Shown: piece by piece, positions 2,098-49,788 of the stretch
How the letters are laid out: every line of letters starts with the position of its first letter
Numbering within the stretch: the first letter of the stretch is position 1
Source of the DNA: Bacteroidota bacterium
GTDB taxonomy: Bacteria > Bacteroidota > Ignavibacteria > UBA10030 > UBA8401
Direction of reading: 5' to 3'
Length of the DNA: 53,610 nucleotides
Assembly: GCA_020052095.1 (NCBI GenBank)
Contig: JAGVPT010000159.1
Location: forward strand, 1-53,610
Position numbers and translations under genes: made by a program
The notes under the pieces: generated by a model
Databases searched by the model: none
What the model was told of the DNA's origin: nothing
Seen by the model: only the letters and a program-made list of their open reading frames with translations

Positions 2098-2261
2098 GCC
2101 CCTACAGAGTGCACTTCCATTTGTTTGGATTGTTTGCCCTTTCGAGCTTTTTGCCGTATCTTTTTCGGAGACACAAGAATTCTGTCGAGCTTCACTGCGA
2201 AATCCCGTGCCATGGGATTCTGAAAAGAACAAACCGAATTATCTGCAAGAAAGTGACCATC

Positions 2262-3404
2262 ATGGCTGACAACGAAAACCTTATCCAATCATTGCAGACG
2301 AGCTGGAAAAAAGAAAAAGCCGGCGCGGAAACGTATCGCGCGCTCGCATCGCGAGAGACGGACGAGAAACAGAGATCAATTCTCCTGAAACTCGCCGAGG
2401 CTGAAGATCTCCATGCCAAAAAATGGGAAGCACGGCTGAAAGATCTCGGCGCTGCGGCACCAGCAAGAATCGAGTCTTCATTTGAGAAAATGCGCCGTTG
2501 GCTCCTAGTGCGCAGCGGAACGGCGAATGCGGTGCAACGCCTGGAGGAACAGGAAGATCGTGACACGGATCGGTACGAGGCGGAAGCAACGCTCGCAACG
2601 AGTCCGGACGACAAGGCAGCGATGAACGAAATCAAAAAGGAAGAAAAGGTTCACGCAAAGGTCCTGCAATCGATGAATAGCAACGAGCACCCGCAGGCAA
2701 GACTGGATTCGATCTTCAAACGCGAAAAGTGGCACGCCGGACATTCGGGAGGATGGATTGGCCAGGCCGTCTACGGGGCAAACGACGGACTCGGCGCAGT
2801 CTTCGGAATTGTTACCGGGATGGCGGGCTACTCCGGCGGAAGCCATGTTGTCTGGGTCGCGGGAGTCGCCGGTACACTTGCGAGTGCACTTTCGATGGGA
2901 TCGGGCGCATATCTTTCGAGGAAATCTGAACGGGAAGTCTACGAAGCAGAGTTAGAACGAGAGCGAAAAGAAATCGAAGAAAATCCCGAAGAAGAAAAGC
3001 AGGAATTGGAATTGTTTTATCAGTTGAAAGGGTTTACCGCGACCGAAGCATCCATGATGGCGCAACGATTAACCGAAAACCCGGATCAGTTCTTGAAAAC
3101 GCTCGCCCACGAAGAATTGGGACTCTCATCATCTTCATTCCCCAATCCCGTGAAGGAAGCATTCTCCGCCACAGCCGCAACAGCCGTCGGAGGAATCATC
3201 CCCGTGATCCCCTTCATCTTCTATTCCGGTACATTGGCAATCGTACTCAGTCTTGTCATTAGCACGATTGCGCATTTTTTGGTCGGCGTGTTGAAGACAA
3301 TCGTCACCGGGCGAAGTTGGTGGCGCAGCGGGATGGAAATGACGTTGGTGGGATTGCTCACGGCAGCTATCGCATACGCCGTCGGCATGTTTCTGAGTCC
3401 TTAG
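2262..3404 (+). CDS. ferritin-like/rubrerythrin domain fused to VIT1/CCC1 transporter domain (MbfA-like)
   Basis: N-terminal KAGAETYRALASRETDEKQRSILLKLAEAEDLHAKKW plus VIT1 segment GQAVYGANDGLGAVFGIVTGMAGYSGG and C-terminal TM helices. Confidence 0.88.
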   Translation: MADNENLIQSLQTSWKKEKAGAETYRALASRETDEKQRSILLKLAEAEDLHAKKWEARLKDLGAAAPARIESSFEKMRRWLLVRSGTANAVQRLEEQEDRDTDRYEAEATLATSPDDKAAMNEIKKEEKVHAKVLQSMNSNEHPQARLDSIFKREKWHAGHSGGWIGQAVYGANDGLGAVFGIVTGMAGYSGGSHVVWVAGVAGTLASALSMGSGAYLSRKSEREVYEAELERERKEIEENPEEEKQELELFYQLKGFTATEASMMAQRLTENPDQFLKTLAHEELGLSSSSFPNPVKEAFSATAATAVGGIIPVIPFIFYSGTLAIVLSLVISTIAHFLVGVLKTIVTGRSWWRSGMEMTLVGLLTAAIAYAVGMFLSP

Positions 3405-3492
3405 TCCTTGGTCCTTGGTCCTTGGTCCTGGGTCCTGGGTCCTGAGTCCTGAGTTCCTAATTCTTAATTCATAATTCTTAATTCATAATTCA
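3395..3492. repeat. heptad-register tract T1 (14 x 7 bp), between and overlapping the stop of the VIT1 gene
   Basis: gagtcct tagtcct tggtcct x3 gggtcct x2 gagtcct gagttcc taattct taattca taattct taattca taattca. Confidence 0.95.
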
Positions 3493-4697: not shown

Positions 4698-4742
4698 GGT
4701 TGGAAGGATGAATTAGGAATTAAGAATTATGAAGGGGGAAGC

Positions 4743-5103
4743 ATGAGGGGGGGGAAGTGGAAAATCTGGTATCGCGAACGAAGAAATTTGCGCTACGGGT
4801 AATTCGATTATACAGTTCGTTGCCAAAACAGACTCTTGCACAAGTTCTTGGCAAGCAGGTATTGAGATCGGGAACCTCGGTTGGCGCGAACTACGAGAAG
4901 CATTCCGGGCGCATTCGTCAGCAAAATTTGTAGCCAAGATGGGAGATTGCGTGAAGGAATTGGAGGAGACTTCTTATTGGTTTGAGCTTCTCCTTGACAC
5001 AAATCTAATAACGACCGAGAGGCTGCATCCATTGCAGGATGAATGCAATCAATTGCTCTCAATCTTCGTGTCCATCATCAAACGCAAGAAAAGAAATTCA
5101 TAA
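4743..5103 (+). pseudogene. four-helix-bundle protein (23S rRNA IVP-like family), frameshifted
   Basis: VENLVSRTKKFALRVIRLYSSLPKQTLAQVLGKQVLRSGTSVGANY in one frame continues as REAFRAHSSAKFVAKMGDCVKELEETSYWFELLLDTNLI in another; break at ~4894. Confidence 0.75.
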
Positions 5104-5126
5104 TTCCTAATTCATGATTCTTCCTT

Positions 5127-6644: not shown

Positions 6645-6784
6645 ATGGAGTATGCAGTATGGAGTAGGAAGTAAGCTGTGAGACAAAAGAAATAAATTCG
6701 TAATCACGTTTCACGTCTCAATGCTAGATCTCGACTTAAAACTCAAAACTTTTCACTTTTAACTTTCAACTCTCACCACTTACG
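6645..6784. repeat. heptad-register tract (20 x 7 bp) upstream of YbjQ-like gene
   Basis: atggagt atgcagt atggagt aggaagt ... ttaaaac tcaaaac ttttcac ttttaac tttcaac tctcacc acttacg. Confidence 0.8.
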
Positions 6785-7199: not shown

Positions 7200-9503
7200 A
7201 TGATCGCGAACTTGTGTTTCTCCGTTATAGTTACATTCTCTTTCGTTGCTCTTCCCTCCCTCATTGCTCAACAGCGTGTCCTTCTCCGCATAAACAAAGA
7301 TGGGCAACAAGAGGCGATTTCCATTCGCAAAGGCGAACGTACGGAAGATGTTCTTTCGCGCTTGGATAAAATGGCTCCTGATACTCGTGCTTCTGGTCCC
7401 AGAGACTCCATTTTCAATTTCGGTCCAAACGGCGCGACGAATTTTATCGCCAGCCATCAGGACGTGATGTTCCAGTGGTTTGATCCACAGGCAAGCGGAC
7501 TAGTCCTTGAGTTCGGTTGGAGAAACGGCGCTGACCTCGGGACCATCAAAAAGTCTACTATCCGGGCATGGCAAGGAGACAAACGACTTACGTCCCTACC
7601 CTCGAATGCAATGTCTACAAGTGGGACGGGCTTACCGGGAAATATGGGTTACTATAAAAAATCTGACGATGGCGATGGTCTGAAGACGCCCTTCAGGGAT
7701 GATGCAACGGATACGAATTTTGTCGGCGGCAAAGGTGACTCCCTTACGACTCGCTTCGATCCACTCGGGAAAGAAGCCAAATGGTTACTAGGCGGGCGAC
7801 AATTTTCCCTCGTGCCGGACGCGTGGCAGTCCTTCAAGCTCCTTGACTTCGGTGATTCAATGGTGTTTGCCGCCCATCAACCGTTCGGCTTCACGAAGCA
7901 AAACGACACTAAATTTAGTGACCTCGGCGGATCAATAGACGACGTGAACCAGTTGATCGCTGCAAACGGAGTCGATGCATATCCTTTTCATTCCATCAAA
8001 TTCTATGAAGGAAAACCGGCCAGCAATTATGGGTGGCAAATCCGTGACTATGAATGGAATATGTATGTAATTGTCACGTACACTACGTGTCGCCCCCCGA
8101 AGATCACATACACCCAATTGCGCACAACATTGAAGACGACGCCAAGAAAAGTAAGCGCGACCATTTACGGTTATGACTGTGACGGGCTGACTGAGATAAG
8201 CTCTGTCGACCTATTCAATAAAATGAACAGCGGTGCGTATATCCAGTCTCCAATGACGGGGACTGCACCGAACTACACAGGAACCGTCCCCGGCGCAAAT
8301 CCTGGTGACACGGTAACGTATTACATTACCGCAACCTTCTCAAGTAATTCAACTTTAAGAACAGTTAACACAATGTATACTATTTTCAAACCGACGAAAA
8401 ATGTTCTGTATCTCTGGAACGGCCGGAGTGTTCCAGCGGGCTTTGCTTCACCTACCGTCCTGGCAAGATATGGTATGATGTTGGATAGCACAAATGAAAA
8501 AGTGTACTATGATGTTTGGGATGTTAAAAAGTATGGTACCGATGATATCCCAACCTTGCTGCCATATTATGATCACGTCGTCGAATCGACGGGAGATGGT
8601 GGGTATGCCGACTTAACAATGTTCGCCGGTGGATGGCTGGCTAAAGGTACACTGGTAAAGCCGAAATCATGGTTCTGGTCCGATCAGGACCACGGATTCA
8701 TCAGCAACTTTGATGATACAACATTTTCTGATACTGACCCTCATGCAAAATACTTTGGCGTAAAATCGCTCATTAATCAGGATTATCCGTACTCAGCAAA
8801 CGGGAACGCTAGTCTGACGAAGCCGTGGCAGTTGGATCTCGTTGCCAAAACCGATGATGCGTTCGGCTATATCGATACAAAGATGGCAAAGGACACAGTA
8901 ACCTATTGGTACGATCCGAATTATGAAATGCCGCCGTTCCTGAACTGGATGGATCAATTTGTCCCAACAGCCGGTGCTGTCACGCTTTTCAAGGACAAGA
9001 AAACCAACACCATCATCAACGGAGTACGGAACACCGCAGCAGACAGGTCGTGGTATACCGTGTGGCTTGCGTTCGATTACCTCTCCACAGATTTCCGCAG
9101 TGATACTTCAAGGGCAAAATACGCTACGCCTCGCGCCGACCCCAAGTATAAGTGGATTCTTGACGTTGGGAATCCAATTCGGGAATTCGTTCTACCGAAA
9201 TTGATAGTGGGTAATTCTAAGATGGATGTGGCGGTGTCAAGTAAGTTCTCATTGCAGCAAAACTTCCCAAACCCGTTTAACCCCGTTACAGTGATCAGTT
9301 ATCAGTTAGCAGTAAACAGTTTTGCCACGGTGAGGGTGTATGATCTCCTCGGCCGGGAAGTTGTGACGCTGATGAACGAGGAGAAGTCCGCTGGGAGTTA
9401 CACGGTACAATGGGACGCGACACATATTGCCAGTGGCGTCTATTTCTACAGATTGCAGGCCGGCGCATTCTCCGACACAAAAAAACTCTTGCTCTTGAGG
9501 TGA
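7200..9503 (+). CDS. secreted protein with T9SS type A C-terminal sorting domain
   Basis: Signal peptide; C-terminus FSLQQNFPNPFNP...VRVYDLLGREVVTL...SGVYFYRLQAGAFSDTKKLLLLR. Confidence 0.88.
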   Translation: MIANLCFSVIVTFSFVALPSLIAQQRVLLRINKDGQQEAISIRKGERTEDVLSRLDKMAPDTRASGPRDSIFNFGPNGATNFIASHQDVMFQWFDPQASGLVLEFGWRNGADLGTIKKSTIRAWQGDKRLTSLPSNAMSTSGTGLPGNMGYYKKSDDGDGLKTPFRDDATDTNFVGGKGDSLTTRFDPLGKEAKWLLGGRQFSLVPDAWQSFKLLDFGDSMVFAAHQPFGFTKQNDTKFSDLGGSIDDVNQLIAANGVDAYPFHSIKFYEGKPASNYGWQIRDYEWNMYVIVTYTTCRPPKITYTQLRTTLKTTPRKVSATIYGYDCDGLTEISSVDLFNKMNSGAYIQSPMTGTAPNYTGTVPGANPGDTVTYYITATFSSNSTLRTVNTMYTIFKPTKNVLYLWNGRSVPAGFASPTVLARYGMMLDSTNEKVYYDVWDVKKYGTDDIPTLLPYYDHVVESTGDGGYADLTMFAGGWLAKGTLVKPKSWFWSDQDHGFISNFDDTTFSDTDPHAKYFGVKSLINQDYPYSANGNASLTKPWQLDLVAKTDDAFGYIDTKMAKDTVTYWYDPNYEMPPFLNWMDQFVPTAGAVTLFKDKKTNTIINGVRNTAADRSWYTVWLAFDYLSTDFRSDTSRAKYATPRADPKYKWILDVGNPIREFVLPKLIVGNSKMDVAVSSKFSLQQNFPNPFNPVTVISYQLAVNSFATVRVYDLLGREVVTLMNEEKSAGSYTVQWDATHIASGVYFYRLQAGAFSDTKKLLLLR

Positions 9504-9523: not shown

Positions 9524-9627
9524 CAAGGATGAATTAGGAATGAGGAATTGTCAGAAATCAAAATGCTTTCTGACCAGCAGCTATAAATATCTGTTCTTCA
9601 TAATTCTTAATTCCTAATTCATCCTTC
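9524..9627. repeat. inverted heptad-type arms flanking a small hairpin
   Basis: aaggatgaattaggaat and attcctaattcatcctt in inverted orientation; internal GTCAGAAA/TTTCTGAC stem. Confidence 0.65.
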
Positions 9628-9677
9628 CTCCTTCAACTTTTTCGTTCATCTACTACTCATATAACCAGGAAACTCGC

Positions 9678-11387: not shown

Positions 11388-11570
11388 GGCAATGAACAAT
11401 GAGTAATGAGTAATAAGTAGCAGCTAGGTGAGATTATTCCTCAAGCCAATGCACTCCGTCTCTCGCTCCCACGCCCTCCGCCACAGGCGGACAAGTGCGT
11501 GGGAACAACCCGACTCCGCCTCTGGCTCCAACGCTCCGCGTGGGAGCTTTGCTCTATCCGGCGAGCTACC

Positions 11571-11776
11571 TTCTCGTTCCCACGCAGACAGACTGTGTAA
11601 AAAGTAATTATTTCCGATGCACGATTTGGAAAATGTAATCGCTGTGGGGAAAACGTTGCACCCATATCAACAATTCGTGATCGGAGACAATTGAATAGAT
11701 GAATCTGTGAAAAATAATCCCCACTGAAAATTCTTGAGATTACTTTTTACACAAGCTCAGAGCGTGGGAACGAGAA
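11571..11776. repeat. nested inverted repeats: GCGTGGGAACGAGAA palindrome arms enclosing a 160-bp TIR element
   Basis: TTCTCGTTCCCACGC (11571-11585)/GCGTGGGAACGAGAA (11762-11776), 15 bp perfect; TGTGTAAAAAGTAAT (11594-11608)/ATTACTTTTTACACA (11739-11753), 15 bp perfect. Confidence 0.85.
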
Positions 11777-13046: not shown

Positions 13047-14321
13047 TTACTCGTACCTCAGCGATTCAATCGGGTCGAGATTTGCCGCCTTCCATGCCGG
13101 ATACACTCCAAAGACAATTCCAATAAACGAACAGAAAATAATCGCCACGATATTCAGTCCGAGGGCGGAAAGGCTCACGAACGGCGTCGAAAGGATAGCG
13201 ACGCTGCTGTTCCATGGGAGTATCGGAGGCGCGCTCGTAATTAGAGCGACGACATTCCCGAGAATCGACCCTGCGATAATCCCTATCACACCGCCGATCT
13301 GACTGAAGACGACCGATTCGCTGAGGAATTGCATCAACACGTTGATTTTCGTCGCGCCGAGTGCCTTACGGATTCCAATTTCCTTCGTCCGCTCTGTCAC
13401 CGAGACGAGCATGATATTCATGATACCGACGCCCGCAGCGAGCAGTGCGATGCACGCGATTCCGAGCGTACCGATTTTCACCATAAACGTCAGATCGTTG
13501 AACTGCTTAATGAGTGTATCGTTTGAGAAAATTGCGAAATCGTCTTCCGCCCCGGGCGGAACGTGGCGAATCGTCCGGAGGATCGCCGTCGAAAGCTCGA
13601 TGATATCGTTATAGCTTTCCTGATCCCGCGTTTGGACCATGATGTTGATCGATCGTTGCTTGCCGTAGAGCGACATCGCCGTGGTCAGGGGGATCGCGAG
13701 ATAATTGTCCTGATTTCCGCCAAGAAATCCCCCCTTCGGTTCGACCGTCCCGATAACTCTGAATTTGTTCCCGTCAATTTTTACTATTTCGCCGATCGGA
13801 CTCCCGCGCTCAAATAACTTTTCTACGACGCCATTTCCGAGAACGCAGACCGAAGCTGCGTTATCGACTTCCTGATTTGTAAATGCGCGACCTTGTTTGA
13901 TTGTCCAATTGTTTGTCGGAAATCCTTGTACCGTCTCTCCCACTAAGCTTATGTTAGGATTTGTTTTATCGTTGTTGTGGAAGATCTGCTTGATCCCAAA
14001 CCACGATTCAAGCCCGATGTACTTTGCCTCATTCATGCGCTCGATGAACATTTCGCCCTGCTCGAGCGTGATGTCCTTCCTGTTTCGGGATCGTGAACGC
14101 CCGTCGTGGAAAAAGGTAACGGGGAATTTCTGGATCTGAAACGTATTGGTGCCGAGGCCGCTGAGACCATTCTCGATTGCGTTTTGCAAGACCCCCATCG
14201 CCGTCATGACTCCGATAATGGAAAAGACCCCCACACCGATTCCAAGCAATGTGAGACTTGACCGAAGTTTGTTCACACGGATGGCGATGATCGCCATTTT
14301 AAAGCTTTCCTGTATCTGCAT
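13047..14321 (-). CDS. ABC transporter permease, MacB/FtsX type
   Basis: NKLRSSLTLLGIGVGVFSIIGVM N-terminus and VSVTERTKEIGIRKALGA motif. Confidence 0.94.
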   Translation of the reverse strand: MQIQESFKMAIIAIRVNKLRSSLTLLGIGVGVFSIIGVMTAMGVLQNAIENGLSGLGTNTFQIQKFPVTFFHDGRSRSRNRKDITLEQGEMFIERMNEAKYIGLESWFGIKQIFHNNDKTNPNISLVGETVQGFPTNNWTIKQGRAFTNQEVDNAASVCVLGNGVVEKLFERGSPIGEIVKIDGNKFRVIGTVEPKGGFLGGNQDNYLAIPLTTAMSLYGKQRSINIMVQTRDQESYNDIIELSTAILRTIRHVPPGAEDDFAIFSNDTLIKQFNDLTFMVKIGTLGIACIALLAAGVGIMNIMLVSVTERTKEIGIRKALGATKINVLMQFLSESVVFSQIGGVIGIIAGSILGNVVALITSAPPILPWNSSVAILSTPFVSLSALGLNIVAIIFCSFIGIVFGVYPAWKAANLDPIESLRYE

Positions 14322-14443
14322 GGCCTTTTCTAAGGATGAAGGACGAATTATGAATTATGAAGAGGAGGTGATGGTACTGCTTTATTAGTCACCCTCTACT
14401 TCTACTCCACAATTCCTATTTCATAATTCCTAATTCATAATTG

Positions 14444-15685
14444 CTACTCATACCGCAACGCTTCCACCGGATCAAGCTTCGACGCCCGGTTCGCCGGAAG
14501 AAAACCGGAGACGACGCCGACGATGATCGAGATGAGGATAGCTATTCCAACAACGCTCAGCGGCATCGATGTCGGCAAAATCTGATTCACAAGCAAACTC
14601 AACGGATACGAAATGATGATACCGATGATCCCGCCAATGAGAGAGAGAGACGCTGATTCGACCAAAAACTGGAGCAAGATCGTGCTACGTTTCGCACCGA
14701 TCGCCTTCCTGATCCCGATCTCCTTAGTCCGTTCCGTGACCGATACGAACATAATATTCATGATCCCGATGGCTCCGACGAATAACGAAAGAGCGGTGAT
14801 GAATAATCCGATTCCAGCAACGACGGCACCGATAGCGTTGAACGTCTGGATGAACATCTCCTGCTGATTGATGGCAAAATCATCTTCTCCGGTTGGCGGA
14901 ACATGACGGGCCTTCCGAAGAATGCCGCGCAGCTCTTCTTTGGTATCGTCCAGATTCTTGATGTCGGCGGCTTTGACATTGATCTGAATTCCTCGATTAG
15001 CACCGAACCTCCGGATGAACCCTTCGATGGGGACAACAATTCGGTTATCGAGGCTTTCGATTCCAAGAAGACTCCCTTGCTTCTCCATTACTCCTATAAC
15101 GCGGAAGGTTGATGTCCCAATTCTTATCGTCTTTCCGAGAGGAGTCTCATTGGGGAAGAGGTTTTCCGCGACTTCCGATCCTAAAACGCATATCGGCCTT
15201 CCGCCGTCGGACTCCGCTTGATTGAAAAACCGGCCGAAGTCCATTGAAACCCCGCCTGTCTCCAGGTACTGATCGTTCGCGCCGAGAGTAAGTACACCTT
15301 CGGAGCTTTGGCCCTTATACTTCACGGGGGCTCGCGTCCCGGCCATCGGGGTGGCGGATTTGATCAGCGTGGCGTGGCGTTCAATGGCGTCGAATTGCGG
15401 CATCTTTATGTCCTTCCTGTTCCGGTACTTCCACCACTCCCCTTCACCGCCAAACCAGGGCCACTTCTGAACATACAACACATCCGCGCCGATTTTGGAA
15501 ATGCTATCGTTGAAACCGCGGCTGAGCCCCTCGATCGCGGTCCCCATCAGCGTCACCGAAACGATTCCGATCACGATTCCGAGCGTGGTCAACACCGAGC
15601 GCATCTTATTCGCACGGATCGCCTGAAAGGAAATCGCCAAGCCCTCTTTCAACTCGTATGCAAAATCTGCAATTCTCATTCCCAT
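14444..15685 (-). CDS. ABC transporter permease, MacB/FtsX type
   Basis: RANKMRSVLTTLGIVIGIVSV and VSVTERTKEIGIRKAIGAKR motifs. Confidence 0.94.
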   Translation of the reverse strand: MGMRIADFAYELKEGLAISFQAIRANKMRSVLTTLGIVIGIVSVTLMGTAIEGLSRGFNDSISKIGADVLYVQKWPWFGGEGEWWKYRNRKDIKMPQFDAIERHATLIKSATPMAGTRAPVKYKGQSSEGVLTLGANDQYLETGGVSMDFGRFFNQAESDGGRPICVLGSEVAENLFPNETPLGKTIRIGTSTFRVIGVMEKQGSLLGIESLDNRIVVPIEGFIRRFGANRGIQINVKAADIKNLDDTKEELRGILRKARHVPPTGEDDFAINQQEMFIQTFNAIGAVVAGIGLFITALSLFVGAIGIMNIMFVSVTERTKEIGIRKAIGAKRSTILLQFLVESASLSLIGGIIGIIISYPLSLLVNQILPTSMPLSVVGIAILISIIVGVVSGFLPANRASKLDPVEALRYE

Positions 15686-21951: not shown

Positions 21952-23004
21952 CTAGACACCGAACTTTTGCACCTGAATTGTATTTAGGATTTGCTGTGCA
22001 ACCTCGAGAGCTCGTCGACCGTCGACGCCGGAGACGACCGGTTCTTTCTTCTCACGGATGGCATTGACAAACGATTCCAATTCATACTTGAGGGCGTTCA
22101 CTTCTTTTACTTCAGGCTGCTCGTAGACGATATTGCGCTTCTTCTTCCCTTCACCGATTTGTCCGAGAAGCATGGTCGTCCCCGCCGTGCTCTCGCCGTC
22201 GTTGACAAGACGAAAAACTTCCGCAAGCCCCTGCGAAAAATCGATTGAAATATATCCATTGTGTTGGAACATCCTCATCTTGCGCATTTTGTTTTGTGAT
22301 ATTCTGCTTGCCGTAACGTTTGCAACGCATCCGTTTTCAAATTGGAGGCGCGCGTTGGCGATATCAACCGATTCAGATACGACGGCAACGCCGTTCGCGT
22401 CGATTCTCGAAACGGGAGATTGCACAAGGCTCAGGATGACGTCGATATCATGGATCATCAGGTCGAGCACGACGGCAACATCTGTTCCCCGTGGATTGAA
22501 CTGTGCAAGCCGGTGCGATTCGATGAACATCGGCCGGAGATCATAGGATTCAAGCGCGAGGATCGCCGGGTTGAAACGTTCTATGTGCCCCACTTGAATG
22601 ATACGCCCTTTCGCCTTCGCGAGGGCAATCAACTCGTCGGCCTCAAGAACTGATTGCGTTATCGGTTTTTCGATCAAGACGTCAATGCCGGCGTTGAGCG
22701 CTTCTCGGGCAACTTCGAAGTGGCGCGATGTTACCGTCGCAACGCTTACTGCGTCCACATGTTCCAAAAGTTCCTTGAGCGTTGAATAGGACTTCACCCC
22801 GGGATAATGTGAAGCCACGGCATTCCGTTTGGATTCGTCGATATCATAAACTCCGACCAACGCCGCAGACGCAATCTCGGAATACATTTTTGTGTGTAGC
22901 GAACCAAGATGCCCGACGCCGATAACGCCTATGCGTGTCGGTTGCGATGCGGAGTGCGCGGTGCGTGGTGCGTGGTGCGTTATGCCTGCGCTATTATTCA
23001 TCAT
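21952..23004 (-). CDS. Gfo/Idh/MocA family oxidoreductase
   Basis: RIGVIGVGHLGSLHTKMY, EKPITQSVLEADELI motifs; N-terminal ~24 aa encoded by a heptad tract. Confidence 0.9.
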   Translation of the reverse strand: MMNNSAGITHHAPRTAHSASQPTRIGVIGVGHLGSLHTKMYSEIASAALVGVYDIDESKRNAVASHYPGVKSYSTLKELLEHVDAVSVATVTSRHFEVAREALNAGIDVLIEKPITQSVLEADELIALAKAKGRIIQVGHIERFNPAILALESYDLRPMFIESHRLAQFNPRGTDVAVVLDLMIHDIDVILSLVQSPVSRIDANGVAVVSESVDIANARLQFENGCVANVTASRISQNKMRKMRMFQHNGYISIDFSQGLAEVFRLVNDGESTAGTTMLLGQIGEGKKKRNIVYEQPEVKEVNALKYELESFVNAIREKKEPVVSGVDGRRALEVAQQILNTIQVQKFGV

Positions 23005-23064
23005 TCATGATCCATTCGTCAAAAATCATTACTCATTGATCATTGTTCATTGTTCATTGAGCGT
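22946..23064. repeat. heptad-register tract (17 x 7 bp) spanning 3' end of DUF5103 gene, spacer and 5' end of Gfo/Idh gene
   Basis: gatgcgg agtgcgc ggtgcgt x3 tatgcct gcgctat tattcat cattcat gatccat ... tactcat tgatcat tgttcat x2 tgagcgt. Confidence 0.88.
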
Positions 23065-24333
23065 TGCCTTCGTTTCATCCGTCCCTCCTGGGCTCTTCGC
23101 AATCGCACTGCCGACAACCCGGTCGAATCCACCGAATCGTTCGTCATGATAATAGACGAGAGCGGTGTAGCGGTTGATTGTGCGCCAGTCGTTCCCTTCC
23201 AACGCCAGCCAATCTTGATCCGCAACGTCCCCCATTGCAGGGTCAACACTGCCGACGACATATTGATAATCGTAAACTCCCCGGCGAATCCATTTGTGAA
23301 GTGTATACAATTTTCCCAGAGAGTCGAGCTCCATTCTATGCCCGGTCGTCGGCTGCCATTGATTGAATGCGCCAACAAGAAAAATACTCTTCTCGTTCGG
23401 AGCCGGAAGTTCCAGACGGAGCGTGACATCGAGATAATCGGAATTTACACCGATGAAAGGAGCGAGTTTAGCCGCGCCGTTCGCATCGATTTTTCCCTGC
23501 CATTGATACCGCGAGAGATCGGCCCCCTCCTTCAACCGTACGGGTAGGCCATTCGGATAGAAGCGTACCGAGCCGATGTCCAGGCGGCGGTACTCATTAC
23601 CGGGCGGTACATTGCGAATCTTAAATCGTTTGTTCGGGCGGTAGAATTCCTCCACGAACGTGTCGGGATTTTTGTCTTCGACATCAATGCGATACGGGTT
23701 GTAGAGTTCCCAATTTCTAATGATGTCCACGGTTTTCACATTGGGATGAAAAATTCGTCCCTCGACGGGCTGACTCTCCTCCGCGGGGACATTGACGTTG
23801 ATCGTGATGTAATGCATTTGATTAAGCGGCGACGGCTGCTCGGAATAAAACTTGTTATCAACGCGCAATGATGCTTCGACCGAATTTTCCACGACAATAA
23901 ACCGCCCTTCGGCGAGAACGACACCGCTTGACTCCTTCTCGACGATCGTGAAGAGGTAATTTCCGGAAAACGGAAAACGGATAGCACCTCGGTCGTCCGG
24001 GAAAAAATTTTTGTAATGATATGAGTACTGATGGACTCCGACCGGCGCTAGGCCGAACTGAATCTGTTGACTCTTGTTATGGGACTGGTCGTTCACAAAG
24101 GGGCTGTCGTCGGGGACCCAGTCTTTCGATGCGTGGACGAAAAGTATCTGAAGATCCGGCGGGTGCACGGCGGCGACGTCGAACTCTATCGTGATTTTCT
24201 GACCCATCGCAACAATCGGCGGAAGATACTCATCGTTGAACGCGTACACGCGCAGGCCCAGAATTTCAAATGCATTGTTTTGGGCTGCGCAGAAGCTGCA
24301 TCCCGCAAGAAGGAGAATGAGTAGGCGTTTCAT
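23047..24333 (-). CDS. exported DUF5103-like protein
   Basis: Signal peptide MKRLLILLLAGCSFCAAQ; IRFPFSGNYLFTIVE, YHYKNFFPDDRG, AFNQWQ pattern. Confidence 0.8.
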   Translation of the reverse strand: MKRLLILLLAGCSFCAAQNNAFEILGLRVYAFNDEYLPPIVAMGQKITIEFDVAAVHPPDLQILFVHASKDWVPDDSPFVNDQSHNKSQQIQFGLAPVGVHQYSYHYKNFFPDDRGAIRFPFSGNYLFTIVEKESSGVVLAEGRFIVVENSVEASLRVDNKFYSEQPSPLNQMHYITINVNVPAEESQPVEGRIFHPNVKTVDIIRNWELYNPYRIDVEDKNPDTFVEEFYRPNKRFKIRNVPPGNEYRRLDIGSVRFYPNGLPVRLKEGADLSRYQWQGKIDANGAAKLAPFIGVNSDYLDVTLRLELPAPNEKSIFLVGAFNQWQPTTGHRMELDSLGKLYTLHKWIRRGVYDYQYVVGSVDPAMGDVADQDWLALEGNDWRTINRYTALVYYHDERFGGFDRVVGSAIAKSPGGTDETKATLNEQ

Positions 24334-25030: not shown

Positions 25031-25121
25031 TAGTCCTTGGTCCTGAGTCCTGGGTCCAAAGTCCTAGGTCCTAATTCTTAATTCCTAATTCTTAATTTCT
25101 AACTCCTGTTTACTGCTAACT
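25031..25121. repeat. heptad-register tract T4 (13 x 7 bp), contains stop codon of CDF gene
   Basis: tagtcct tggtcct gagtcct gggtcca aagtcct aggtcct aattctt aattcct aattctt aatttct aactcct gtttact gctaact. Confidence 0.92.
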
Positions 25122-26510
25122 GCCTGATGGTTCTACATGAATATTCACTTCTCGTATACGCGGGAACTCCACCATGATTTTATTCTCCAGAGCGGTTGAG
25201 ATTGCATGGACCTCTTCAAGCGATAGTTGCTTGTCCACAATGGAGTTCATCGATACGCGGTATTTGCCCTTCACTTCAAGAACCGAAAGAATAGTGCATT
25301 CCTTGATGCCGGGGTGTCTGTACGCAAGTTGCAGAATTTCTTCGATCAGTTCCTGCGAGGTTTGGGTAACATCCACGGAGGCGACGACACTTTCCCGGGA
25401 ATCCTCGATGTGCACGATCACCGCGGCAACGTTCGGAATTTCATTCTTAATGCGCGATTCAATCTCGTCGACCATCGTGTGCACATGGACAAATTCCTGC
25501 TGTTGCTCGAACTCAAGCTGAAACTCCACCTGATATTTTCCATCCACCTGAAATGCCTGCACGTCGTGCGCGCGTAATCCGCTCTTCGACATCATGAGTT
25601 TCACTTTATCTACAACAGTTTCGTCAGAGGTCTCCGTCGGCTCAGGATGAATCATGATGTCGGCATTCGGAAGAATCTTGTGAATCGTGTCTTCAACGTT
25701 ATGCACAACCGTGTCCGCCTTTTCAAAAGAGAGTGTCCGCTTGAGATCCAGGGTCAAATCGACGAACGTTTTGGATCCGGAATTCCTAACACGAACATGT
25801 TCGACATTCTGGACTCCCTCCATCGCCACGGCAGCCCGCTTCACTTGTTCTTCGACGCCAAGGGGCGCGCGATCGAGCAGTTCGTTAATCGTTCGTTTGC
25901 CGAGGGAGAGAGACACGAAGATCACGATGATTGCCACAATCAACGCTGCGATGGAATCCGCCACGGGTATTTTCAGCAGGGTCAATACCAATCCGAACAA
26001 CACGACACCGGAACTCCACACGTCGGTGCTGAAGTGAAGCGCATCAGCTTCCAGCGCCTGGCTTCTATACTTGTGGGCGACACGATACAATGCGCGCGAT
26101 CGGGAAACATCGACCACGATCGAGAGAATGATCACAAAGAAACTCCAGAAGTTTACCTCAATCTCGACCGTGTGGTACAGCAGGCGCTTGATAGCTTCGT
26201 TAATGATCCAGAAGCATGTAATAAGAAGAAGAAGCGTTTCGATCAGTGCAGAGAAGCTCTCTATTTTGCCGTGACCATAGAGATGCGTTTTATCCGCGGG
26301 CCTTGCCGAAAATTTGACCGCGAGCAATGTGATGATGGCAGCCAGGAAGTCCAATCCGGAATGTGCTGCTTCCGACAAAATTCCCAAGCTCCCTGTCCAC
26401 ACTCCGACCCAAATTTTTAAACCGGTGATGACAAACGCGGCTGCAACTGAAGAAAGAGCGACCGTCGATTTTTCGTTATCTTGTATTGATGAATAATCCA
26501 TGAGAATCAA
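25116..26510 (-). CDS. cation diffusion facilitator transporter with extended C-terminus
   Basis: SLGILSEAAHSGLDFLAAIITL, HLYGHGKIES, EADALHFSTDVWSS; three tandem dimerisation-like C-terminal segments. Confidence 0.93.
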   Translation of the reverse strand: MILMDYSSIQDNEKSTVALSSVAAAFVITGLKIWVGVWTGSLGILSEAAHSGLDFLAAIITLLAVKFSARPADKTHLYGHGKIESFSALIETLLLLITCFWIINEAIKRLLYHTVEIEVNFWSFFVIILSIVVDVSRSRALYRVAHKYRSQALEADALHFSTDVWSSGVVLFGLVLTLLKIPVADSIAALIVAIIVIFVSLSLGKRTINELLDRAPLGVEEQVKRAAVAMEGVQNVEHVRVRNSGSKTFVDLTLDLKRTLSFEKADTVVHNVEDTIHKILPNADIMIHPEPTETSDETVVDKVKLMMSKSGLRAHDVQAFQVDGKYQVEFQLEFEQQQEFVHVHTMVDEIESRIKNEIPNVAAVIVHIEDSRESVVASVDVTQTSQELIEEILQLAYRHPGIKECTILSVLEVKGKYRVSMNSIVDKQLSLEEVHAISTALENKIMVEFPRIREVNIHVEPSGS

Positions 26511-29390: not shown

Positions 29391-31544
29391 ATGAAATACA
29401 TTTTCCGACCTGTCCGCTGGGGCGGATTTCTTTTTGTCGTGTTCTGCCTATTCACCACTACGAGTTCATTGCATGCTCAATGGATCCAAACCAACGGCCC
29501 CTACGGCGGCTACGTTCGTGCTTTTGCCGTCTCCACCAACGGGGCAAGCGGCACGAATACCTTTGCCGGGGCTACTTTCAACGGCGGCGTCTTTCTTTCC
29601 ACCAACAACGGTCTAAGCTGGACTGAGGTCGATACCGGCATGACGAACACTAATGTCAATGCTCTTGCCGTCTCCGGCACAAATCTCGTCGCAGGGACTT
29701 CAGACGGCGTCCTTTTTTCCTCCAACAACGGCACAAGCTGGCGTGCAATCGATACCGGCTTGGTGAACACTGTTGTGTTTTCTCTTACTGTCTCCGGCAC
29801 AAATCTCTTTGCCGGGACTTCTGACGGCGTCTTTCTCTCCACCAACAACGGCGTAAGCTGGAGTGCAGCGAGTACCGGTTTGACGAACACTAATGCCATT
29901 GCCCTTGCTGTCAAGGGCACGAATCTTTTTGCAGGGACTTATGATGGCGTCTTTCTTTCTGTCAACAACGGCACAAGCTGGAGTGCAGTCAATACAGGCT
30001 TGACGAACACCAATGTCGATGCTTTTGCAGTCTCCGGCACGAATCTCTTCGCCGGAAGTGATGGTGGCGGTGTCTTTCTTTCCACCAACAACGGCACAAG
30101 CTGGAGTGCAGCGAGTAGCGGCTTGACGAGCACTAACGTCTACGCTCTTGCTGTCTCCCCCAACGGGGCAGGCGGCACGAATCTCTTTGCCGGGACCTAC
30201 GGCGGCGTCTTTCTTTCCACCAACAACGGCACGAGCTGGACACAAACCGACTTGACGACAATTGTCCGTGCTCTTGCCTTCTCCGGCATGAATTTGTTAA
30301 GTGGGATGCATGGCGGTGGAGTCTTTCTTTCCACCAACAACGGCACAAGCTGGACACAAACCGGCTTAACGAAGACTGATGTCACGGCTCTTGCCGTATC
30401 CGGCACGAATCTCTTTGCGGGGACTTTAACCGGCGGCGTCTCTCTTTCCACCAACAACGGCATAAGCTGGAGACAAACCGGTGTGATGAACGGTAATGTC
30501 TACGCTCTTGCCGTCTCCAGCACGAACCTTTTTGCCGGAACTTTTGGCGGAGCCTATCGTTCAAGCGACAACGGTACAAACTGGACTTGGGTTAGTACCG
30601 GCTTGACGAACACTCATGTCCGTGCTTTTGCCGTCTCCCCCGACGGGGCAGGCGGCACGAATCTCTTTGCCGGGACTTTTGACAATGTCTTTCTTTCCAA
30701 CAACGACGGCACAAGCTGGACTGCAACCAACTTGCAGGGCGCATATGTTAATGCTCTTGCCATCTCCAGTACGAATCTCTTTGCGGGGATCACCTTTGGC
30801 GTCTATCTTTCCACTGACAACGGCACAAGCTGGAATGCGATGAGTACCGGCTTGACAAACACTTATGTGACGGCTCTTGCCGTCTCCGGCACGAATCTCT
30901 TTGCCGGGACTTTTGGCGGTGGCGTCTTTCGTTCCACCAACAAAGGCTCAAGCTGGACTGCAGTCAATACCGGCTTGACGGACAAAACTGTCCAAACCCT
31001 TGCTGTCTCCGGCACGAATCTTTTTGCCGGAACTTATGACGGCGTTTTTCTTTCCACCAACGACGGCAGCAACTGGACTGCGGTCAATACCGGCTTGACG
31101 GACAAAACTGTCCAGACCCTTGCCGTCTCCGGCACGAATCTCTTTGCCGGGACTTATGAAAGCGGTGTCTGGAGACGACCGTTGTCGGAAATATTAACCT
31201 CAGTGCCCGCGGAAGGCGGGTCGACCGACTTGCCGACCCATTTCAGTCTTGAGCAGAATTATCCGAACCCGTTTAATCCGACAACACATTTACGATTTAC
31301 GATTGCAGATTTACGATTTGTTACGCTGGCGGTCTTCGATCTGGTCGGGCGGCAAGTGGCAACGCTGGTGAAGGAAGAGATGAATCCGGGAAGTTATGAA
31401 GTAACTTTTGATGGGACCGGTTTGGCGAGCGGCATCTATTTCTACCGTTTTGTGGCGAATGCATCTTCCAAGGGAATCCCTTTGGGACATTCAGGACAGG
31501 CTGGCTCATTCACCGAGAGTAAGAAGCTTCTTTTGCTCAGATGA
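29391..31544 (+). CDS. exported repeat protein (about 14 WxxxxTGLTNTNVxALAVSGTNLFAGTxxGVFLSTNNGTSW units) with T9SS sorting domain
   Basis: Signal peptide; tandem ~39-42-aa BNR/propeller-like repeats; FSLEQNYPNPFNPTT...SKKLLLLR. Confidence 0.92.
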   Translation: MKYIFRPVRWGGFLFVVFCLFTTTSSLHAQWIQTNGPYGGYVRAFAVSTNGASGTNTFAGATFNGGVFLSTNNGLSWTEVDTGMTNTNVNALAVSGTNLVAGTSDGVLFSSNNGTSWRAIDTGLVNTVVFSLTVSGTNLFAGTSDGVFLSTNNGVSWSAASTGLTNTNAIALAVKGTNLFAGTYDGVFLSVNNGTSWSAVNTGLTNTNVDAFAVSGTNLFAGSDGGGVFLSTNNGTSWSAASSGLTSTNVYALAVSPNGAGGTNLFAGTYGGVFLSTNNGTSWTQTDLTTIVRALAFSGMNLLSGMHGGGVFLSTNNGTSWTQTGLTKTDVTALAVSGTNLFAGTLTGGVSLSTNNGISWRQTGVMNGNVYALAVSSTNLFAGTFGGAYRSSDNGTNWTWVSTGLTNTHVRAFAVSPDGAGGTNLFAGTFDNVFLSNNDGTSWTATNLQGAYVNALAISSTNLFAGITFGVYLSTDNGTSWNAMSTGLTNTYVTALAVSGTNLFAGTFGGGVFRSTNKGSSWTAVNTGLTDKTVQTLAVSGTNLFAGTYDGVFLSTNDGSNWTAVNTGLTDKTVQTLAVSGTNLFAGTYESGVWRRPLSEILTSVPAEGGSTDLPTHFSLEQNYPNPFNPTTHLRFTIADLRFVTLAVFDLVGRQVATLVKEEMNPGSYEVTFDGTGLASGIYFYRFVANASSKGIPLGHSGQAGSFTESKKLLLLR

Positions 31545-37486: not shown

Positions 37487-37557
37487 GAAGCGGAAGTTAG
37501 GAGAGTGGAAGCAGTTGTAAGTTGTAAGTTTAGAGTTGCAGGTTTTAAGTTGTAAGT
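37481..37557. repeat. heptad-register tract (11 x 7 bp) starting at adk stop
   Basis: gattagg aagcgga agttagg agagtgg aagcagt tgtaagt tgtaagt ttagagt tgcaggt tttaagt tgtaagt. Confidence 0.85.
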
Positions 37558-37689
37558 TGAGACATCTGAAAAATTCTTGAGTTAGTCATGGTGAGCGAAG
37601 GCGAACCATGATTTCACTCTAAATTTCACACTTCGACTACGCTCACTGTGAATTTTGTCGGCTTAAAACCAATTTTTCAGATGTCTCAA
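37557..37689. repeat. 133-bp TIR-bounded element (MITE-like) embedded in heptad tract
   Basis: 19-bp perfect TIR TTGAGACATCTGAAAAATT/AATTTTTCAGATGTCTCAA; inner GTGAGCG/CGCTCAC stem. Confidence 0.85.
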
Positions 37690-40433: not shown

Positions 40434-40559
40434 GAGTGTGGAGTCCGTAGTCCGCAGTCCTGAGTCCGAGGTCCAAAGTCCAAGGTTCGGAAAACTGGGG
40501 TTTGATCTTCAATTCCTAATTCATCCCTCATCTCTTCTCTCTTTTCTCTTATCTCTATT
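40434..40559. repeat. heptad-register tract T3 (18 x 7 bp) filling spacer upstream of aroQ
   Basis: gagtgtg gagtccg tagtccg cagtcct gagtccg aggtcca aagtcca aggttcg ... aattcct aattcat ccctcat ctcttct ctctttt ctcttat ctctatt. Confidence 0.9.
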
Positions 40560-43024: not shown

Positions 43025-44270
43025 ACAGCAGATACTTCTTTCGGACCAATCTAAATGATTCGATATCTTTATTCCAATGTGAAACAATTTCTTCGACCGG
43101 AGCCTTCTTTTCGAGAGCCAAACGGACTGCGTTTGTGCCCATTACCTTATCGAACATTTGAATTCGTGACGAATCGGATAATGCGAAAATGCTTTTCGCG
43201 GGGTACAACTCGTTTATCACCTCAATGATGTGGAGTTGGAGATTGACAAGATTTACCTTCTCGCGGTCGAGAATGTAAATCTGCACTCCGTTCACTTGTT
43301 TCCCCTGCATCGCCGCATAGAAGGGTTTGTAGATGATCGGACGGAAGTAGACGCCCGCAATTTTCTTGGCGTTCAGTGATTGGGCAAAACGCGAAGCATC
43401 GATCCATGGAGTGCCGACAAGTTGAAACGGCAATGTGTATCCGACGCCAATACTCACAGCATCAAGCTCACCGAGAATTCCCGTTCCAGCATAAAACAAC
43501 GCCGTCGCAGCGTTCGGGATATGAGGCGACGGGGGAACCCACTCCAATCCGGTCTCTTCCCACCACATCGAACGATTCCATCCTATTATCTTGATAACAG
43601 TGAGCCTGCATGCCACGCCGCCTTTGAGCCACCCTTCGACGTTCAACAACGTCGCCAGCTCGCCGCACGTCATTCCGTAGACATATGGGATCGGGAACAT
43701 GCCGACAAATGATTTGTATTTTACGTCGAGAATATTCCCCTCGATCTTGTTTCCAGTGAGAGGATTCGGCCTGTCGAGCACGACAAAATCGATATTGTTC
43801 TCGGCGGCGGCTTCCATGGCAACCGCCATTGTGTTGATGTAGGTATACGATCGCGAGCCGATATCCTGGATGTCGTATACCAGAACATCAACCCCTTTGA
43901 GCATTTCGGGAGTCGGCTTGGTAGTTTTTCCGTAGAGCGAGTACACCGGAATCCCCGTTGCCGAATCGGTGTACGAATCAACCCGTTCTCCGGCTGCCAC
44001 ATCCCCACGGACACCGTGTTCCGGGCCATAGAGGGCAACGAGCTTGAGCTCCTTCGCTCGCGCAAAGATATCGACTGTGGAAACGAGAGTGTTAGAAACT
44101 CCGGTCGGATTGGTGATCAGGCCAACGCGTCTGCCGATGAGCGGAGAGAAGTTGTTTTCGACGAGAACATCAATGCCGGTTTTAATGACGGGCTTAGGCC
44201 GCGGTTGAGGTTGTGCGTGGAGAGTGACAGCTAATGCAAAAGTCAAAATTAGAAATGATAAATTCTTCAC
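43017..44270 (-). CDS. DUF1343 protein (NamZ-like exo-beta-N-acetylmuramidase)
   Basis: GRRVGLITNPTGVSN, ALYGPEHGVRGD, VYDIQDIGSRSYTYI, FVVLDRPNPL. Confidence 0.93.
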   Translation of the reverse strand: MKNLSFLILTFALAVTLHAQPQPRPKPVIKTGIDVLVENNFSPLIGRRVGLITNPTGVSNTLVSTVDIFARAKELKLVALYGPEHGVRGDVAAGERVDSYTDSATGIPVYSLYGKTTKPTPEMLKGVDVLVYDIQDIGSRSYTYINTMAVAMEAAAENNIDFVVLDRPNPLTGNKIEGNILDVKYKSFVGMFPIPYVYGMTCGELATLLNVEGWLKGGVACRLTVIKIIGWNRSMWWEETGLEWVPPSPHIPNAATALFYAGTGILGELDAVSIGVGYTLPFQLVGTPWIDASRFAQSLNAKKIAGVYFRPIIYKPFYAAMQGKQVNGVQIYILDREKVNLVNLQLHIIEVINELYPAKSIFALSDSSRIQMFDKVMGTNAVRLALEKKAPVEEIVSHWNKDIESFRLVRKKYLLYE

Positions 44271-44313
44271 AGTCTTCTTCGGTTTGGTCTAACAATAAGG
44301 TTGTCTCTCTTTT

Positions 44314-44369
44314 CATAATTCTTATTTCATAATTCCTAATTCATCCCTCATCCCTTATCCCTCTTCCCT
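44314..44369. repeat. heptad-register tract (8 x 7 bp)
   Basis: cataatt cttattt cataatt cctaatt catccct catccct tatccct cttccct. Confidence 0.9.
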
Positions 44370-44374
44370 TCGAT

Positions 44375-45826
44375 CTAGATCCCCCGCAGTTTCGTCGCCT
44401 TGGCCACGCGGTCGACAGCGAGGATGAATGCGCCGATCCGTATCGAGACATTATATTTCTCGGTAGTCTTCATAACTTCAGCGTAACTCGTCGTCATTAT
44501 TTTTTCAAGTTCGGCGACGACGCGCTGGTAATCCCACCGGAATTGTTGAAGATTCTGCGCCCATTCGAAGTAGCTTACGGTGACGCCGCCGGCATTCGCG
44601 TAAATATCGGGGATGACTGGAATTTTCCTCGCTGCGAAGATATCGTCCGCTTCGTAGGTGGTGGGTCCGTTGGCGGCCTCCACGATGAGTTTCGCCTTCA
44701 CGCGGTCGGCGTTGCGAGCGTGCAATTGACCCCCCATCGCGGCAGGAATAAGGACGTCGCACTTCAATTCCAACAATTCTGCATTTGTGATTTTCGCAGC
44801 CCCCTTTAGTCCAACAACGGAACCGGTCTCGAGAACATGTTCCATTGCATCTTTATAGCGGATGCCGCGCGGATTGTACACTCCCCCTTTTACATCGCTG
44901 ACACCGACAACCTTCACACCAAATTCATCTTCCAGAATTCTTGCAGCATGGGCGCCGACATTTCCGAATCCCTGAATTGCCACCGCGGTTTTCCTCAGAT
45001 CAAACTTGAATGATTTCGACGCTTCGCGCAAGGCAATGCACACTCCTCGTCCGGTCGCCTCCTCCCGCCCAGCAGAGCCTCCCAGCTCGAGAGGCTTACC
45101 CGTGACAACCGCGGGCGTATGACCATGACGCCTGCTGTATTGATCCATCATCCACGACATCACTTGTGCATTGGTGTTGACATCGGGTGCGGGAATATCT
45201 TCGGACGGTCCGATCACGCAATCAATCTTTTGCGTGAAAATGCGTGTGAGGCGTTCAAGCTCTCCGAGCGACAATTGTTTCGGGTCGACAGCGATGCCCC
45301 CTTTTGCACCGCCGAACGGGATATCGACGATCGCCGTCTTCCACGTCATCAACGACGCGAGGGCTCTCACTTCATCGAGGTCGACATCCGGATGATACCG
45401 AATGCCACCTTTAGTCGGACCGCGAGCATTATTATGCTGTACGCGATACCCGATGAACGTGTTAAGTTTCCCGTCGTCCATGATGATCGGAAGCTCTACG
45501 CGCAATTCACGGTCGGGAGTCTTGATAAGCTGCTTTATTTCTTCGCTCAATTGGAGCTTTGCCGCTGCGATGTCAAAATTGTGCAGCACAACATCATACG
45601 AACTGATATTTTTCGCGGGCTGACTGGGCTGGCGGACAGGCAGTGCAACGGATTGCGGGGTGCCGCCTCGCCGGTTCTTTTTTGGTGAGGATTTCTTGCG
45701 CACGTTTTTCTTGTGTGCCGGTTTCTTGTGCACCAGTTTCTTGCGAATTGGCCTTGATTTTTTCCGAAGGGCTGTGCGCTTCTTTTTATGAACGCTCTTC
45801 TTATTTTTCTTCTTGCGTGCCATCAT
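44375..45826 (-). CDS. Glu/Leu/Phe/Val dehydrogenase (glutamate dehydrogenase) with Lys/Arg-rich N-terminal extension
   Basis: GGIRYHPDVDLDEVRALASLMTWKTAIVDIPFGGAKGGI; N-term MARKKKNKKSVHKKKRTALRKKSRPIRKKLVHKK; AAAGGAG upstream of ATGATG. Confidence 0.95.
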   Translation of the reverse strand: MMARKKKNKKSVHKKKRTALRKKSRPIRKKLVHKKPAHKKNVRKKSSPKKNRRGGTPQSVALPVRQPSQPAKNISSYDVVLHNFDIAAAKLQLSEEIKQLIKTPDRELRVELPIIMDDGKLNTFIGYRVQHNNARGPTKGGIRYHPDVDLDEVRALASLMTWKTAIVDIPFGGAKGGIAVDPKQLSLGELERLTRIFTQKIDCVIGPSEDIPAPDVNTNAQVMSWMMDQYSRRHGHTPAVVTGKPLELGGSAGREEATGRGVCIALREASKSFKFDLRKTAVAIQGFGNVGAHAARILEDEFGVKVVGVSDVKGGVYNPRGIRYKDAMEHVLETGSVVGLKGAAKITNAELLELKCDVLIPAAMGGQLHARNADRVKAKLIVEAANGPTTYEADDIFAARKIPVIPDIYANAGGVTVSYFEWAQNLQQFRWDYQRVVAELEKIMTTSYAEVMKTTEKYNVSIRIGAFILAVDRVAKATKLRGI

Positions 45827-45968: not shown

Positions 45969-46394
45969 TCATTGAGCCGTCGAACGATGGTCAATGTTCC
46001 AGTTTTTCAGCCAGCTGATATCGTGTAACAATTGCATGAGACGGTCCATAGCTTCAGGCGTCATTCTGAAATACCCTGTTGTAAACCGTCGCTTTACATC
46101 GTCGGGTGCTTCTTTAACGAGCAGGCGGACAAAGGTCAACGCTTTCTCCAGGTTCTCTGCGAACTCGTGATCAAGTTTCTCATATCCCTCTCCGTTCTTG
46201 CCGATGCGCTTCATGACTGCGGAGGTATTGACAAGGAACTTGGCGATGAATGTCAAATCGTCGAGCACTAGGTCGTGGCGATGAAGTCTTGAGAGTTCAA
46301 TCAGCGAGGCAAGGTCATCGGGGTGATGAAGTTTCTCCCGGGAAAAATTCTGAAGCGAGGAGACGAGCAACGTGGTTTCCTGACTGATAACCAT
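45969..46394 (-). CDS. hypothetical protein
   Basis: 141-aa helical ORF in a coherent strand context. Confidence 0.65.
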   Translation of the reverse strand: MVISQETTLLVSSLQNFSREKLHHPDDLASLIELSRLHRHDLVLDDLTFIAKFLVNTSAVMKRIGKNGEGYEKLDHEFAENLEKALTFVRLLVKEAPDDVKRRFTTGYFRMTPEAMDRLMQLLHDISWLKNWNIDHRSTAQ

Positions 46395-46462
46395 CTACAA
46401 TTTGCGAAAGTGATTTTTGGTCGGATTCAATATAGAGCATCTTCAAAAGAGAATCAATAAGA

Positions 46463-46588
46463 AATGAGCAATGATCAATCACCAATGATCAATGATGAAT
46501 GATCGATGGAAAACACTGGTATTTGTATCATAAATCATGGTTTTTCATTACTCATTGCTCATTGGTGATTGATCATTGCGCATCATTT
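46463..46588. repeat. heptad-register tract (18 x 7 bp) with internal inverted symmetry, overlaps stop codon of GT9 gene
   Basis: aatgagc aatgatc aatcacc aatgatc aatgatg aatgatc ... attactc attgctc attggtg attgatc attgcgc; 21-bp perfect inverted repeat 46468-46488/46559-46579. Confidence 0.88.
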
Positions 46589-49617: not shown

Positions 49618-49622
49618 CGCCG

Positions 49623-49783: not shown

Positions 49784-49788
49784 AAAGA

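Follow-up and report, generated by a model that had tools for sequence, protein, structure and literature searches.

Degenerate heptamer tracts in the spacers of an Ignavibacteria genome: register, inverted pairing, and orientation to genes

Repeats with a 7-bp unit have been described from several bacterial lineages. In Xanthomonas (GGGAATC) and Nostoc (GGGGA(C/T)T) they are intergenic tandem units with two or three variable positions, mostly between codirectional genes and avoiding divergent spacers, with the G-rich strand being the coding strand downstream of ORFs and the non-coding strand upstream (Rehm et al., 2015; PMC4692102). Inverted pairs are frequent (one genome has 70 such cases among its 186 repeats), and prominent lengths are not conserved between related species (Rehm et al., 2015). 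TAACTGA direct repeats are found in Beggiatoaceae, Cyanobacteria, and some Bacteroidetes (MacGregor, 2015; PMC4679880). Their units are nearly homogeneous, and in the Beggiatoaceae they lie mostly a few nucleotides upstream of starts; Cyanothece strains differ in 7-nt steps, and the arrays of Microcystis and Elizabethkingia are mixed with other heptamers (MacGregor, 2015). Among long simple sequence repeats (SSRs) of 5–11 nt, heptamers are the commonest (Mrazek, 2007, as cited by MacGregor, 2015 and Rehm et al., 2015). Heptamer over-representation in bacteria was noted in that year; contact of polymerase with 7 nt and the formation of G-quadruplexes have been proposed as causes, and no tested explanation was found in the literature covered.

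The DNA analyzed here (the window) is the 53,610-nt contig JAGVPT010000159.1 of a Bacteroidota bacterium of the class Ignavibacteria (GenBank assembly GCA_020052095.1). A preliminary description had singled out the spacer between an ORF with VIT1/rubrerythrin domains (2109–3404) and a thiolase gene (ATG at 3495), dividing positions 3395–3492 into 14 heptads without an indel. Parse and sequence are exact, and the tract does cover the TAG of the upstream ORF (3402–3404) and end 2 bp ahead of the thiolase ATG, as had been stated; Tandem Repeats Finder (TRF) returns periods of 7, 14, and 21 for it. Similar tracts recur at 6645, 11390, 22948, 25033, 40434, 44312, 46456, 49620, and 53277, but the one previously placed at 37481 is better located at 37513–37559 (Table 1). 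Freedom from indels holds for the reported tract, but not for those at 37513 and 9285, where TRF finds them. The overall interpretation first given, including an apt comparison to the heptamer repeats of cyanobacteria (STRRs), is partly supported; inverted pairing, purine/pyrimidine polarity, 14-bp alternation, patchiness, and an 8-bp register in sister genera were not part of it.

Table 1. Heptad tracts and tract units in the window. Positions are counted from its first base.
Positions	Strand	Feature	Evidence
3393–3492	+	Reported tract: NNGTCCT heptads that give way to TAATTCN heptads; fills VIT1-thiolase spacer	lag-7 score 69
4703–4733	+	Purine-rich GAATTAN heptads directly 3' of thiolase stop; left arm of pair	15-nt inverted match with 5095–5120
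5095–5120	+	Pyrimidine-rich AATTCNT partner arm, 5' of aldehyde dehydrogenase start	
6645–6682	+	Purine-rich ATGGAGT heptads 3' of a stop	TRF, lag-7 scan
6734–6783	+	Pyrimidine-rich AACTTTN heptads 5' of a start	TRF, lag-7 scan
9525–9541	+	Left arm AAGGATGAATTAGGAAT of perfect 17-bp inverted pair	
9597–9634	+	AATTCNT/CATCC heptads; right arm of AAGGATGAATTAGGAAT pair at 9610–9626	
11390–11419	+	AATGANY heptads immediately 3' of a stop	
14332–14361	-	Heptad arm 5' of minus-strand start; partner 14413–14442	
14413–14442	-	Heptad arm 3' of minus-strand stop, purine-rich in gene sense	
22948–23066	-	Mixed heptads GTGCGTG, TCATTGN	TRF, lag-7 scan
25033–25123	+	GTCCNNN heptads passing into TTCNTAA heptads in one-base steps	TRF, lag-7 scan
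37513–37559	+	AGTTGTA heptads with indels	TRF, lag-7 scan
40434–40556	+	GTCCNNN (40434–40486), then AATTCNT/ATCTCTT (40511–40556)	TRF, lag-7 scan
44312–44369	-	AATTCNT passing into TCATCCC heptads	TRF, lag-7 scan
46453–46564	-	Tract-loop-tract unit, 112 bp, with a copy on contig C133	
46456–46508	-	Pyrimidine arm in gene sense, with GCAATGATCAATCACCAATGA at 46468–46488 (plus strand)	
46545–46583	-	Purine arm (gene sense), matching GCAATGATCAATCACCAATGA perfectly in inverted orientation over 21 bp (46559–46579)	
49620–49781	+	Spacer-filling: GTCCNNN, AATCCTG/AATTCTG, then AATTCNT	TRF, lag-7 scan
53277–53374	+	Purine-rich AGGGATG and GAATTAG heptads 3' of a stop	TRF, lag-7 scan

The proposed lag-7 excess in spacers is borne out. 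Over the 6.0 kb of window spacers the match fraction at lag 7 is 0.335, against 0.265 in shuffled sequence. Counting match runs with a score of at least 14, there are 15 at lag 7, 10 at lag 14, and 7 at lag 21, with none at any other lag from 2 to 24 (that is, none at 2–6 or 8–13); shuffles that preserve dinucleotides give none. In the coding sequence of the window there are five lag-7 runs, for 10.5 per 100 kb compared to 250 per 100 kb of spacer. Since neither neighboring lag (6 or 8) is as strong as 7 and the excess over shuffled controls is present, the observation of lag-7 spacer tracts stands. The register is also long: RGTCC pairs less than 35 bp apart number 1044 at multiples of seven vs. 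19–24 in each other phase, pairs at 35–69 bp number 500 vs. 17–37, and in-phase distances are still dominant out to about 104 bp. Within tracts, the match fraction is 0.71 at lag 7, 0.72 at lag 14, and 0.49 at lag 70, with off-register values of 0.16–0.29.

Of the 3.9 Mb host genome 1.08 Mb was covered, one set of 20 stretches having been chosen mostly for repeat matches. Three successive GTCCNNN units occur 213 times (16 for the reversed control), three AATGANN units 145 times (31), and three AATTCNN units 28 times (1). With a 6-bp spacing AATGA is not found; with an 8-bp spacing it occurs 13 times, all in one pure satellite of AATGATGG. This 8-mer satellite, on host genome (G000) contigs C20, C6, C193, and C261, is distinct from the degenerate tracts. 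Density is uneven: the window has 20 tracts, or 37 per 100 kb, and unselected contigs 39 in 735 kb, or 5.3 per 100 kb, an enrichment of about sevenfold (Poisson P about 3e-11). Counts per contig are overdispersed; the period extends across the genome, though unevenly. The window's richness is unlikely to come from a foreign contig, because the window is syntenic with a same-genus genome and has an ordinary tetranucleotide profile; a second species of the genus within the bin is a possible source.

Each heptad family has four or five nearly fixed positions and two or three variable ones with restricted letters, giving grammars such as GTCC-D-D-R, AATGA-N-Y, and AATTC-H-T. The preliminary description held that the period is kept while the sequence drifts; the period-7 register and some drift are there, but with most positions nearly fixed the drift is not free. 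It also placed two “unrelated” families in one register. A common register is usual but not invariable, since genome-wide the mutual phase of the GTCC and AATTC families peaks at 0 and again at 6 mod 7. Nor are the families unrelated: at 25033 they are linked via GTCCTAA, TTCTTAA, and TTCCTAA, the first and last of which differ by one base, so that small steps connect the two. The near-identity of units typical of bacterial heptamer SSRs and STRRs is not seen in the tracts here, the variable triplet being identical in 6% of random GTCC unit pairs and 8% of neighbors. Neighbors are in fact less alike than units two apart: variable-letter identity in the GTCC family is 0.079 at one unit and 0.204 at two (0.11–0.12 in permutations), and in the AATTC family 0.122 and 0.409 (0.23 in permutations), with both the deficit and the excess at P of about 0.02 or less. 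The effective step in these two families is therefore often 14 bp; by the same permutation test, AATGA tracts have no such step. Restricted letters at variable positions, together with strict polarity (below), are not what neutral repeat growth would be expected to yield. Selection for stop codons in all frames was considered and rejected, as by inspection it would suit AATGANY and GAATTAN but not GTCC/GGAC units.

Tracts sharing a spacer are commonly inverted copies of one another. In 49% of 39 same-spacer pairs at least 8 nt are shared in inverted orientation, a figure that falls to 4.8% when the two tracts come from different loci, and the inverted arms of one spacer have idiosyncratic units in common. 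None of the 39 shares at least 8 nt directly, a zero that is partly due to method, as segmentation merges adjacent tracts of the same orientation; the between-locus contrast is independent of segmentation. Orientation to genes is also strict, as judged by gene ends from a simple longest-ORF caller, for which starts are approximate. In all 16 codirectional pairs the arm that follows the stop is purine-rich when read in gene sense, and so are 35 of the 36 tracts in the stop-proximal third of a spacer, as against 3 of the 15 that lie in its start-proximal third; tract-free spacers stand at 50% on this measure. Whole-spacer tracts, including the reported one, have no preference (12 of 20 purine-rich). 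Because the polarity tracks gene direction on both strands, its link is with transcription or the ends of genes and not with one strand of the chromosome. Most tracts sit 3' of stops. Tract spacers are divergent in 2 cases vs. 62 codirectional, against a background of 61 vs. 298 (Fisher P 0.002), and convergent spacers show no tract enrichment.

Position next to stops and the shunning of divergent spacers would suit paired tracts that act as RNA stem-loops at transcript ends, either terminators or 3'-end stabilizers, whose arms merely happen to be heptads, and some tract spacers do fold into hairpins of high stability (z to -7). As a group, however, tract and tract-free spacers do not differ in folding z-score (P 0.53), the genome's short-loop terminator-like hairpins are not purine-first (11 of 31), and tract-pair loops are 26–93 nt long with no consistent T run 3' of the stem; at 46300–46650, around the 112-bp unit, no terminator-like site (short-loop stem plus T run) was found. 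Many tracts have no partner, and the lack of enrichment in convergent spacers is a further point against this function, as are the mismatches between arms, where G.U is not favored over A.C: 11 vs. 7 in the host and 3 vs. 8 in other phyla, a comparison of modest power. Without a G.U excess, copying at the DNA rather than the RNA level is indicated, and a stem-loop function in RNA appears unlikely. The tracts are best read as repeat DNA made at the DNA level, and not as an RNA or protein signal. Promoters within the loops were also looked for and discounted, TAnnTTTG being found in only 1 of 17 spacers.

Named relatives of the host are Ignavibacteria/Bacteroidota metagenome assemblies. The window is syntenic with same-genus genome G001, with most proteins 62–97% identical, yet where a gene pair is conserved and its spacer has a tract here, the spacer in G001 and in the next genus is mostly shorter and without one. 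The VIT1-thiolase spacer is 90 bp here, 79 bp in G001, and 40–41 bp in the next genus, and the reported tract is missing from the orthologous spacer in three relatives. The spacer at 14321–14444 (122 bp) is 41–42 bp and tract-free in relatives, and that at 44270–44375 (104 bp) is 60 bp in G001 and has no tract. At 49617–49789 both the host and G001 have tracts, but only the right end, AATTCCTAATTCNTAATTC, aligns, the left part having been replaced. Variation in heptad number between orthologous spacers, which the preliminary description had proposed to compare, could be compared with this one same-genus genome, the nearest one but of a different species, in which most tracts are absent. That absence makes the tracts lineage-specific, and the spacer comparisons indicate that they are gained and replaced within a genus.

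At least one unit has also been copied elsewhere. The 112-bp tract-loop-tract unit (46453–46564) has a gapless copy of 88% identity on C133, between non-homologous genes, which shows dispersal as a unit and a stable heptad number thereafter; with no heptad gained or lost over about 12% divergence, rapid ongoing slippage is not seen. Small dispersed repeats in Nostoc punctiforme are reportedly embedded in heptameric repeats (Elhai et al., 2008), and would be similar in having a dispersed non-heptad core within heptads, but here there is just one unit with a conserved loop. Phase-variation repeats, which are long homogeneous tracts in or upstream of surface-protein genes, are a poor match and were rejected: the units are heterogeneous, and the flanking genes include those for thiolase, aldehyde dehydrogenase, and glutamate dehydrogenase.

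These properties could be accounted for by lineage-specific heptamer arrays in dispensable intergenic DNA, produced by stepwise and inverted copying at the DNA level and mainly non-adaptive, a proposal given about an even chance of being correct. As inferred from tract anatomy, strand misalignment during DNA synthesis would add units in steps of 7 bp or, more commonly, of 14. Some tracts might gain an inverted arm when the nascent strand folds back on a complementary heptad and copies it, and arms plus loop could now and then be copied to a new site. Point mutations would build up later, and tract growth would halt at coding sequence. The gene-oriented polarity suggests that transcription may bias where, and in which orientation, arrays form or survive. 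Counting against stepwise copying, it does not account for a unit length of 7, or of 8 in sister genera, nor for the sevenfold enrichment in the window.

Dispersal of the 112-bp unit could also point to small mobile stem-loops, moved like REP elements by Y1 (IS200/RAYT-type) transposases, with the heptad arms as their ends. Across 41 genomes, heptad counts correlate with counts of Y1_Tnp (rho 0.54, with no phylogenetic correction), and remain at 0.54 when the host's own and incomplete genomes are left out; correlations with DDE_Tnp_1 (0.27) and RVT_1 (0.10) are weaker and not clear. But loops of tract pairs are mostly unrelated to one another, the exception being the one unit with two copies, where REP elements would form a single palindromic family in many dispersed copies. 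No heptad tract was found in the covered parts of C265 and C190, two of the nine contigs with Y1 genes, and genomes G031 and G038 have 11–13 Y1 genes yet few heptads. Mobility of this kind is improbable as the general explanation, and a transposase contribution to tract spread is a lead only.

Fixed cores with variable letters, and strict polarity relative to genes, are features that arrays of binding sites for a regulatory DNA- or RNA-binding protein might have, as has been suggested for TAACTGA upstream of starts in the Beggiatoaceae. One genome, however, holds many families that differ in core, at no fixed distance from starts; orthologous spacers of conserved gene pairs lack tracts; and sister genera differ in unit length, so that a binding function seems quite improbable. 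Unlike TAACTGA repeats, the tracts here belong to many families and are mostly downstream of stops; they are like them in being intergenic heptamers, mixed in some hosts (MacGregor, 2015). TAACTGA-like units do occur (window 9289–9320 and locus L193, 7537–7562), but are rare, and with most tracts after stops, a TAACTGA unit within a few nucleotides upstream of a start is not the arrangement here. The TAACTGA-type heptads at 9289–9320 (CAGTTATCAGTTA) fall within the reading frame of a type IX-secreted protein, overlapping the part that encodes its sorting domain.

The closest match in layout is to the Xanthomonas and Nostoc repeats, with which the tracts share heterogeneous intergenic 7-bp units, inverted pairs, orientation to ORFs, and avoidance of divergent spacers (Rehm et al., 2015). 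Placement, inverted pairing, and strand bias being as described there, the tracts could conceivably act via G-quadruplexes, as proposed for those heptamers. The canonical motif of four G3 runs is present in only 3 of 117 tracts, however, making this very hard to credit. Further differences are that one genome here has many families, almost none of them G-quadruplex-capable, that families merge in one register and neighbors alternate, that arms share idiosyncratic units, and that sister genera use 8 bp. As in the SSRs surveyed by Mrazek (2007) and in cyanobacterial STRRs, a unit length of 7 is preferred in phylogenetically scattered genomes; compared to those SSRs, tandem simple repeats as cited, the units here are degenerate, and it is chiefly the register that reveals the repeat. 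Given the layout match to Xanthomonas GGGAATC and the mixed arrays of Microcystis and Elizabethkingia, the kind is already known. What is new is that this lineage has a form with many families and without G-quadruplexes, that its units follow a grammar with a 14-bp step, that arms are copies, that one unit is dispersed, and that sister genera have an 8-bp register. No published description of the repeats in this lineage was found in the open-licence subset of the literature, which is weak evidence. The same layout without G-runs, the 8-bp sisters, the 14-bp steps, and the inverted-copy arms each narrow the range of mechanisms, and in uncultured genomes such tracts can mislead promoter, terminator, and small-RNA calls.

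In sister genera of the same family, 8-bp tracts of AATGANYC are found with nearly the same core, some as inverted pairs, at loci that were selected by the AATGANYC-type pattern itself (L271–L300, in genomes G012, G017, G018, and G020); they stand beside 7-bp tracts in the same genomes. Tracts of this unit length speak against a polymerase footprint fixed at 7 nt. For unrelated phyla, 80 named loci were selected by thiolase similarity only, from Anaerolineales and other Chloroflexota, Deltaproteobacteria, Acidobacteria, Bacteroidota, Actinomycetota, and others. Their spacers have 51 lag-7 runs, vs. at most 7 at any other lag up to 13 and none at lag 7 in shuffles, and 27 of the 80 loci carry one. 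Same-spacer pairs are inverted in 10 of 15 cases vs. 1.7% between loci, with a weaker polarity (17 of 23 stop-proximal tracts purine-rich). With lag-7 tracts in many phyla and 8-bp tracts in sister genera, the phenomenon is broad and its period not universally 7. On a more speculative reading, which is doubtful at present, degenerate register repeats (mostly 7 bp, some 8) arranged as purine arm, loop, and pyrimidine arm at gene 3' ends would form a single, widespread class of stem-loop DNA shared by many bacterial phyla and spread by specific machinery such as a hairpin-handling Y1 transposase or fold-back copying, with the G-rich Xanthomonas heptamers and TAACTGA repeats as special cases.

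The window holds other repeats as well. Positions 37557–37689 are a dispersed repeat of ~130 bp with 19-bp inverted ends (TTGAGACATCTGAAAAATT) that looks like a miniature transposon, with copies at L235 16596–16723 (94%) and L195 9529–9614 (partial). Another dispersed intergenic repeat, at 11571–11776, has inverted ends (TTCTCGTTCCCACGC) and relatives in L235, L197, L228, and L240. The contig encodes C-terminal type IX secretion system (T9SS) sorting domains; the ORF at 29391–31544 combines a type IX secretion C-terminal domain with coding repeats of ~120/240 bp (BNR/sortilin-like propeller).
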